This document shows, piece by piece, positions 13,891-16,434 of a stretch of DNA of 46,748 bases; within the stretch, counting starts at the first letter, position 1, and every line of letters starts with the position of its first letter. The stretch is from an uncultured beta proteobacterium (GTDB lineage: Bacteria; Pseudomonadota; Gammaproteobacteria; Burkholderiales; Burkholderiaceae_C), in the NCBI GenBank assembly GCA_903929815.1, contig CAIYWD010000174.1, positions 1 to 46,748 on the forward strand, given 5' to 3'. A program made the translations under genes and the position numbers. The notes under the pieces were generated by a model. It worked only from the letters and a program-made list of their open reading frames with translations. It was not told the origin of the DNA and made no database searches.

Positions 13891-15429
13891 TTAGCCTTGT
13901 GCGGCCACGCGACTGGCCTGGTTTTGCAATTTATTCAATGCGCTCAAATAAGCTTTGGCGGAAGCCACCACAATGTCGGGGTCATCGCCCACGCCGTTGA
14001 CCACACGTCCGCTTTTTTGCAAACGCACAGTGACCTCTGCCTGGCTCTCGGTTGATCCACTGATGGCATTGACAGAGTACAACACCATTTCAGCCCCACT
14101 TTTGGCATGTATTTCAATCGCTTTCAGTGATGCATCGACAGGGCCGTTGCCGTTGGCCGATCCGGTGACTTCCTTGCCTGCCATGGTCATGATCACGGTG
14201 GCTTGTGGCGTTTCACCGGTCTCACTGTGTTGCGACAATGAAACCAAAGCATACTGGTCATGGCGATGTGCCACATTGTCTTCACTGACCAAAGCCAAAA
14301 TATCTTCGTCAAAAATTTCACTTTTTCGATCGGCCAATTCCTTGAATTTTGCAAACGCGGCGTTGGTGTCAGCTTCACTGTCCATTTGAATACCCAACTC
14401 CAGCAAGCGCTGTTTGAAAGCATTGCGCCCGCTTAATTTTCCCAAAACGATTTTGTTGGCTGACCACCCTACATCTTCAGCCCGCATGATTTCATAAGTA
14501 TCACGCGCCTTCATGATGCCATCTTGATGAATGCCTGAAGCATGGGCAAAGGCGTTTGCTCCCACCACGGCTTTGTTGGGCTGCACCACAAAGCCTGTGG
14601 TTTGACTGACTAAGCGGCTGGCTGCCAAAATTTGCGTCGTCTCAACACCCACATCCAGCCCAAAGTAGTCGCGCCGGGTGCGAACAGCCATGACCACTTC
14701 TTCCAGGCTGCAATTGCCGGCACGCTCACCCAAGCCGTTGATGGTGCATTCCACCTGGCGTGCACCACCAATTTTTACACCTGCCAGTGAGTTGGCAACG
14801 GCCATGCCCAAATCGTTATGGCAGTGAACCGACCAGATGGCCTTGTCCGAATTAGGAACACGTTCGCGCAAGCGCTGAATAAAGTTGCCATAGAGCGCTG
14901 GAATGGCGTAGCCCACCGTGTCTGGCATGTTGACCGTGGTAGCGCCCTCATGAATGACGGCCTCAATCACACGGCACAGAAAATCTTCTTCGCTGCGGTA
15001 GGCATCTTCAGCGCTGAACTCTACATCTGACACTCTATTTTTGGCCAGGCGAACCGACTGCACGGCCTGTTCCAACACCTGATCGGGTGTCATGCAGAGC
15101 TTTTTGGCCATATGCAAGGGCGATGTTGAAATAAAAACGTGAATGCGCGAGTTCTTGGCGTATTGCAAAGCGTCTGCCGCTAAAGTGATGTCACGTTCCA
15201 TGGCGCGTGCGAGTGAACACACTGTCACATCACGAACGGCATGAGCAATCGCCTGAATGGCATCAAAGTCGCCAGGAGAGCTAGCAGCAAAACCCGCTTC
15301 CATCACATCAACTTTCAAACGTTCGAGTTGGCGTGCAATACGAAGTTTTTCATCACGCGTCATGGATGCACCCGGCGACTGCTCGCCATCGCGCAAGGTG
15401 GTATCAAAAATGATCAATCGGTCAGACAT
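13891..15429 (-). CDS. leuA: 2-isopropylmalate synthase
   Basis: [37 protein letters not shown] motifs. Confidence 0.97.
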
Positions 15430-15455
15430 TTTGTTTCTCCTGGAAAATTTTCAAC

Positions 15456-15487
15456 AAAAAAAAGCCCGTTGTAAAAACAGACGGGCT
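15456..15487 (-). terminator. Attenuator terminator hairpin upstream of leuA
   Basis: Minus strand AGCCCGT-ctgtttttaca-ACGGGCT followed by TTTTTTT, about 27 nt before the leuA ATG. Confidence 0.85.
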
Positions 15488-15525
15488 GATGTGGTGCATA
15501 CAGACGTGTACTAGCCACTTCGCCC
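15483..15525 (-). promoter_or_regulatory. Putative antiterminator pairing GGGCgaaGTGG with CCACatcaGCCC
   Basis: Minus strand GGGCGAAGTGG (15515-15525) is complementary to CCACATCAGCCC (15483-15494), which overlaps the 5' arm of the terminator. Confidence 0.6.
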
Positions 15526-15576
15526 AAGGAAATCTAGCGACAGGAACATGGACAGAAATGGCGACAAGGTTTGCAT
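15511..15576 (-). CDS. leuA leader peptide MQTLSPFLSMFLSLDFLGRSG (21 aa, 5 Leu)
   Basis: Direct translation of the minus strand; Leu codons TTG, CTG, CTG, CTA, CTT; ends just before the terminator; too short for the ORF track. Confidence 0.75.
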   Translation of the reverse strand: MQTLSPFLSMFLSLDFLGRSG

Positions 15577-15597
15577 GGTGTCAATGTAACACACCCC

Positions 15598-16434
15598 TCA
15601 CTGATGCAAACCGCGTTCTTCGGGTTCATCGGTCGAAATACTGATGACGCTGGTGGGAATGCCTTTGATTTTGCGACGGACGTAGATGACATAACCACTC
15701 AAACCATAAGTGACGATCAAACTGAACATCACAATGGGCGGTGCCAGGTTGATGACTGCGATGCCAAGGGCAATCAATACCATCACCACAAAAGGCACAC
15801 TTCGCTTCATCTGAATATCTTTGAAACTGTAAAACGGCACGTTGGTGACCATGGTCAGGCCAGCATACAAAGACACCACAAACATGGGCCACGCCATTTT
15901 CGCACCCGTCACATTCAAGTCTGTGGAAATCCATATCAAACCGGCCACCAGTGCTGCGGCGGCGGGAGAGGGCAGACCCTGAAAATAGCGTTTGTCAACC
16001 ACGCAGGTGTTGACATTAAAGCGCGCCAGGCGCAGCGCAGCGCAAGAGCAATAGACAAAAGCGGCAATCCAGCCCCAGCGCCCCAAACCCTTGAGCGCCC
16101 ACACATAGGCCATCAAGGCGGGGGCCGCACCAAACGACACCATGTCTGCCAGAGAATCCATTTGCTCACCAAAAGCGCTTTGGGTGTTGGTCAAACGCGC
16201 CACGCGGCCATCCAGGCTGTCTAGCACCATGGCACAAAATATTCCCACAGTGGCCATGTCAAAACGCCCGTCAATGGCCATCACAATGGCATAAAACCCG
16301 CCAAACAAGGCAGCCAAGGTGAACAGATTGGGCAGAATGTAAATGCCTTTGCGGCGCTTTTTGGTATCAGCGTCTGTGGCAAGGGATTCGTTGGGCGTGG
16401 TCATATCGTTGATTGGCATGACGCAGATCCTCAT
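15598..16434 (-). CDS. pssA: CDP-diacylglycerol--serine O-phosphatidyltransferase
   Basis: DGRVARLTNTQSAFGEQMDSLADMVSFGAAPA (CDP-alcohol phosphotransferase motif); start may be internal. Confidence 0.93.
   Translation of the reverse strand: MRICVMPINDMTTPNESLATDADTKKRRKGIYILPNLFTLAALFGGFYAIVMAIDGRFDMATVGIFCAMVLDSLDGRVARLTNTQSAFGEQMDSLADMVSFGAAPALMAYVWALKGLGRWGWIAAFVYCSCAALRLARFNVNTCVVDKRYFQGLPSPAAAALVAGLIWISTDLNVTGAKMAWPMFVVSLYAGLTMVTNVPFYSFKDIQMKRSVPFVVMVLIALGIAVINLAPPIVMFSLIVTYGLSGYVIYVRRKIKGIPTSVISISTDEPEERGLHQ

Follow-up and report, generated by a model that had tools for sequence, protein, structure and literature searches.

The window – by which we mean the whole analysed stretch of 46,748 nucleotides – carries on its minus strand, in order of transcription, pssA (15598..16434, above the cut-off of TIGR00473), a short open reading frame (ORF; 15511..15576) and leuA (13891..15429), which encodes 2-isopropylmalate synthase, scores above the cut-offs of NF002087 and TIGR00973 and has a Shine–Dalgarno (SD) sequence of its own, AGGAG. 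The short ORF, whose ATG follows the end of pssA by 21 nucleotides, encodes a leuL-like leader of 21 amino acids, MQTLSPFLSMFLSLDFLGRSG*, with homologues in related genomes. Its codons are ATG CAA ACC TTG TCG CCA TTT CTG TCC ATG TTC CTG TCG CTA GAT TTC CTT GGG CGA AGT GGC TAG, the five for Leu standing at −14, −10, −6, −4 and −1 relative to GGG. An earlier sequence-only reading had claimed just such a leader between pssA and leuA, followed by a terminator of the form AGCCCGT..ACGGGCT-T7 and a competing pairing with its 5′ arm; every one of these elements lies in the window where that reading put it.

The intrinsic terminator (15456..15487, minus strand), situated between the leader ORF and leuA as the first structural gene, consists of the arms AGCCCGT (15487–15481) and ACGGGCT (15469–15463), three extra TGT:ACA pairs in the loop and a run of seven T (15462–15456). 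Its 5′ arm overlaps region 3 (CCACATCAGCCC; 15483..15494, minus strand), the 3′ side of a putative antiterminator whose 5′ side is region 2 (GGGCGAAGTGG; 15515..15525, minus strand), the two pairing through GGGC:GCCC and GTGG:CCAC; both assignments draw on folds and pair counts. In the minimum-energy fold, region 2 is hidden by a 1:2 protector hairpin (15514..15562, minus strand), in which 15562–15555 and 15553–15549 pair with 15526–15514. The sequence-only reading had no counterpart to this predicted stem, with which the usual three-stem design is complete.

Statistics on the window alone are modest. The proposed check of folding the minus-strand RNA of 15430–15600 recovered the stems with a z-score of −1.77, which is weak by itself; one terminator-like site was found, and shuffles give 1.0; and when the leader is shuffled with its dinucleotides preserved, 10% of the open shuffles have at least five Leu codons. 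Rfam Leu_leader (RF00512) had no match at E up to 10 in 15300–15800 and none at gathering score in the whole window, nor did any Rfam leader family reach threshold in 15300–15800. Two sub-threshold candidates were rejected as falling below the curated score: Trp_leader (E 0.99) and anti-hemB (15544–15456, minus strand; E 0.016, 20.7 bits vs 49.5 needed), the latter probably reflecting a shared G+C-rich terminator. By itself, the window is thus weak evidence for an attenuator, and it is the comparison between genomes that is decisive and excludes chance.

Conservation and distribution of the leader

Homologous leaders are found at 27 of 30 leuA loci of the same genus, and homologous short ORFs – for example MKQILLALLLSPDGRRR and MHTFSLLLLLTSFGRSG – precede leuA in Rhodoferax, Limnohabitans, Polaromonas, Acidovorax, Variovorax, Ramlibacter, Hydrogenophaga and others. 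Across 69 distinct members, these short upstream ORFs of 16–21 codons contain several codons for the end product: Leu accounts for 60% of the codons from −10 to −4 before the conserved GGG and for 4% of the other codons before it. As Ile (3%) and Val (1%) show no enrichment, the sensor is, by its sequence, leucine-specific. Two same-genus loci, L014 and L026, have leuA without the element, and in L026 the upstream sequence is unlike pssA.

Within this block, Leu is most constant at codon −6 (65 of 69 members; CTG at 15541..15543, minus strand, in the window), which would be the main control codon, followed by codon −4 (55 of 69, CTA in 43; CTA at 15535..15537, minus strand, in the window). CTA makes up 165 of the 304 leader Leu codons (54%) vs 3.8% of Leu codons in nine genes of the window, the only genes from which the comparison usage was drawn; the codon is also common at −8 and −4. 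Its reverse complement is TAG, the usual stop codon, and in several members codon −6 pairs with the stop in the 1:2 stem; both tRNA rarity and RNA pairing may therefore lie behind the bias.

The terminator core GCCCG/CGGGC is invariant among the 69 members and its closing pairs covary (GC 36, AU 30; UA 54, AU 6). In almost every member the GGG of region 2 pairs with the CCC of region 3, and 68 of 69 members use GGG itself and no other Gly codon, a preference that speaks for pairing and not for the peptide; the core GGGC:GCCC cannot covary, since region 3 is shared with the terminator, and gives no covariation support of its own. Inner antiterminator pairs vary between members (GGTT:AACC, GTGG:CCAC, GGGA:TCCC). 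RNAalifold over all members yielded no consensus for the inner 2:3 and 1:2 stems because these shift register between clades, and they were assessed sequence by sequence. The comparison of related intergenic regions that the sequence-only reading had suggested thus bore out conserved Leu codons and covarying terminator pairs, but not covariation of the invariant antiterminator core; the result named as fatal to it – homologous regions lacking both the Leu-rich ORF and the competing stems – was not observed.

Against this background the window copy is diverged, with 21 amino acids against the usual 17 (four codons more), dispersed Leu codons and a single CTA. It retains Leu at −6 and −4, region 2, both competing stems and the promoter, and we judge it to be functional, perhaps with altered or reduced sensitivity, given its dispersed Leu codons and one CTA.

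A covariance model built from 40 members, the window being one of them, gave the window 79.5 bits (E 8.8e-14). It located the element in 160 of 201 genomes of the family (the window and 159 more) and in 117 of 141 genera, nearly always as one copy per genome; in an order-wide sample, it was found in only 9 of 150 genomes, four of them from the window's own family. Twenty further places, mostly weak matches, nearly all have a leader directly preceded by a −10 element and, where the sequence could be read, followed by a leuA start. In Polaromonas JS666 (L061, 599–4039), the order is pssA, leader, a leuA of the yeast type (TIGR00970) and a leuA of the bacterial type (TIGR00973), that is, tandem paralogues behind one attenuator, so that the predicted switch persists while the first controlled gene changes. 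The model match lies similarly far upstream in L063, L067, L077, L087, L094, L100, L111–L113, L117 and L123.

Ribosome position and the predicted choice between stems

Folds with a stalled ribosome were computed by masking an assumed ribosome footprint, on the RNA as it stands before arm 4 is transcribed. In the family, the antiterminator probability is 0.32 without a ribosome, 0.95 with a stall at −6, 0.03 with a stall at −4 and 0.00 with a ribosome at the stop codon; the corresponding values for the window are 0.00, 1.00, 0.38 and 0.00. In these predicted folds, terminator and antiterminator are thus mutually exclusive, the antiterminator overlapping the terminator's 5′ arm and the position of the ribosome choosing between them, in agreement with the earlier idea that a stalled ribosome frees the competing pairing and one at the stop codon covers it. 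Not all five Leu codons of the window, which that reading had treated as stall sites, behave alike: stalls at −14, −10 or −6 free GGGC before arm 4 is made (0.99–1.0), a stall at the CTA of −4 frees region 2 in part, and one at the CTT of −1 does not.

Once the RNA is complete and at equilibrium, the terminator prevails in almost every member at any ribosome position, the window with a stall at −6 being an exception (antiterminator 0.77 vs 0.22). The switch must therefore act by the order of transcription, as in classical attenuators.

Promoter, mechanism and alternatives

An extended −10 promoter, TGTGT-TACATT (TGTGTTACATT; 15583..15593, minus strand), ends 6 nucleotides before the leader ATG. 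Among 69 family members, 68 have TRTGN-TANNNT ending 6–8 nucleotides upstream of the leader start, a count biased by the fact that most leaders had been picked with a promoter criterion; recounted without one, the motif stands at 6–7 nucleotides in 73 of 89 loci, most of the remainder having a slightly weaker motif or another spacing. Nine of the 89 are without the full motif: seven of these keep a −10 element near the leader (in six only the first T of TRTG is missing, and the seventh has an alternative start), none remains in L006, and the ORF of L115 is probably spurious. Among all 11,067 ATGs in the loci, leaders included, only 66 carry the motif at this 6–7-nucleotide spacing. SD-like sequences stand before the leader in 1 of 69 members, as against 66 of 69 before leuA. 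The leader thus combines a −10 element placed for a start at the start codon with the lack of an SD site, and from this fixed spacing, which matches the usual −10-to-start distance, we infer transcription from the A of the ATG (predicted start 15576..15576, minus strand) and a probably leaderless mRNA.

Upstream of leuA in L006 and L053, leader and terminator are retained and the −10 element is replaced (GTGTGGCCCATGG); the attenuator of these loci may have lost its own promoter. In the window, a promoter-like TTTACA-17-GAAAAT (15475–15447, minus strand; 9/12 matches, with 0.6 such sites expected by chance) overlaps the terminator and, if real, could provide attenuator-independent transcription of leuA.

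We consider it very probable that leuA is controlled by a leucine transcription attenuator of the ribosome-mediated type, served by an extended −10 promoter of its own. The sequence-only reading, which had likewise seen a leucine attenuator here, thus finds support in the family-wide conservation of the leader, in the competing stems and in the masked folds. Its placement of the attenuator inside a pssA–leuA transcription unit holds for the gene order pssA–leader–leuA, but not for leuA being driven by pssA transcription alone, since the element has its own family-conserved promoter.

Read from the leader, the promoter motif and its spacing, the alternative stems and their conservation, the start site, translation and leucine response can be predicted as follows. 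RNA polymerase would start at the A of the leader ATG, and the leaderless mRNA would be read by a ribosome without an SD site. With Leu-tRNA plentiful, the ribosome would reach the stop codon and cover region 2, leaving regions 3 and 4 to pair as the intrinsic terminator, so that transcription would end before leuA. With Leu-tRNA scarce, it would stall at the Leu codons, above all at −6, and block the 1:2 stem; region 2 (GGGC...GTGG) would then pair with region 3 (CCAC...GCCC), and transcription would enter leuA.

The same attenuator might be translated on a longer RNA, arising from a promoter further upstream or from read-through of pssA (a possible minor source), and so not be leaderless. 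The gap of only 21 nucleotides after pssA would suit such an RNA, as would the in-frame GTG at 15594, which lengthens the window ORF to 27 amino acids. However, this GTG lies upstream of the −10 element and no sign of its conservation was seen; the extended −10 keeps its fixed distance of 6–7 nucleotides family-wide, 68 of 69 leaders are without an SD site, and L003, L010, L012, L018, L020 and others keep the unit from −10 to ATG despite differing sequence in the spacer between pssA and the element. We therefore hold translation on a longer RNA to be unlikely.

Compatible with the attenuator, though in our estimate quite unlikely, is an additional action in trans of the terminated leader RNA or of its peptide, like that of rnTrpL/peTrpL in Sinorhizobium meliloti: rnTrpL, too, is reported as a short RNA that begins with AUG and has a terminator at its end (PMC7298713), but beyond the Leu block the peptide residues differ greatly between members, seemingly governed by RNA pairing and not by protein sequence. 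It is hardly tenable that the hairpin merely terminates the pssA mRNA and that the ORF is open by chance: a terminator would be unremarkable after pssA and the Leu content is not significant in the window alone, but 69 distinct members share the leader ORF, the positions of its Leu codons and the GGG anchor, as do weak model matches with diverged leaders, and Polaromonas JS666 retains the unit although a different leuA paralogue follows it.

Known attenuators and a second leader form

The mechanism of this probable attenuator of a Rhodoferax-like bacterium is itself already known; no description of a betaproteobacterial leu attenuator was found in the openly accessible literature. The leuL of Escherichia coli and Salmonella is alike in its Leu-rich leader before leuA, its CUA control codons, its competing stems and its intrinsic terminator (PMC6123439; PMC1183508), whereas the leader described here has 17–21 amino acids rather than 28, no match to Rfam Leu_leader, another sequence and other stems, probably no 5′ leader of its own, and pssA upstream. 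The LeuL of Campylobacter and other Epsilonproteobacteria also uses rare Leu codons before leuABCD (PMC3847290), but has 28 amino acids and, having been found through a search for upstream ribosome binding sites, is leadered.

Streptomyces leuL1/leuL2 and the Corynebacterium leuA leader are likewise Leu-rich and precede leuA, those of Streptomyces being leaderless (PMC8079986; PMC4046766); leuL1 is without an intrinsic terminator (PMC8079986), unlike the three-stem intrinsic-terminator design proposed here. A leader without a ribosome binding site is mentioned for Corynebacterium ilvB, as cited in PMC4046766. The LEU element of Actinobacteria, a pseudoknot in which a run of Leu codons pairs with the SD site of leuA (PMC1262725), is set apart from the present design by that description. 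Among Proteobacteria, the S. meliloti trpL (rnTrpL) is similar as an attenuator RNA that begins at the leader AUG (PMC7298713), with Trp codons and trpE in place of Leu codons and leuA.

In other families of the order, a different leader occupies the gap before leuA in 12 of 20 leuA upstream regions, a count that is not unbiased, as these leaders were picked by a criterion combining promoter and end motif. Its −10 element lies 6–8 nucleotides before the start, there is no SD site, and the ORF of 22–37 codons mostly ends in ..LLLRPAR, LLLRLAR or similar. The ORF closes with a short, tight hairpin, after which comes a C-rich, G-poor stretch, mostly with no U-tract, a composition after the stop codon that resembles a Rho site and possibly indicates a Rho-dependent leucine switch. 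Leaders of this kind, ending ..LLLRxxR* (CTGCTGCTGCGCCnnGCGCGC TAA), occur in L034–L043, L047–L049 and L152–L169. This second form looks more novel than that of the window. The chances are about even, in our view, that leaderless Leu leaders control betaproteobacterial leuA across many families, as a common promoter–ATG unit joined to at least two downstream switches, one the intrinsic-terminator form and the other the ..LLLRxxR* form, perhaps Rho-dependent.

For the biology of these bacteria, the predicted attenuator would place the leucine biosynthesis of a large freshwater and soil group under a simple, testable RNA switch, and would add a probably leaderless leader peptide to those of Proteobacteria. 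The covariance model and the promoter–start motif offer a means to name unannotated leaders in many genomes, and the two leader forms in neighbouring families would be a naturally occurring example of a single sensor coupled to different expression platforms.
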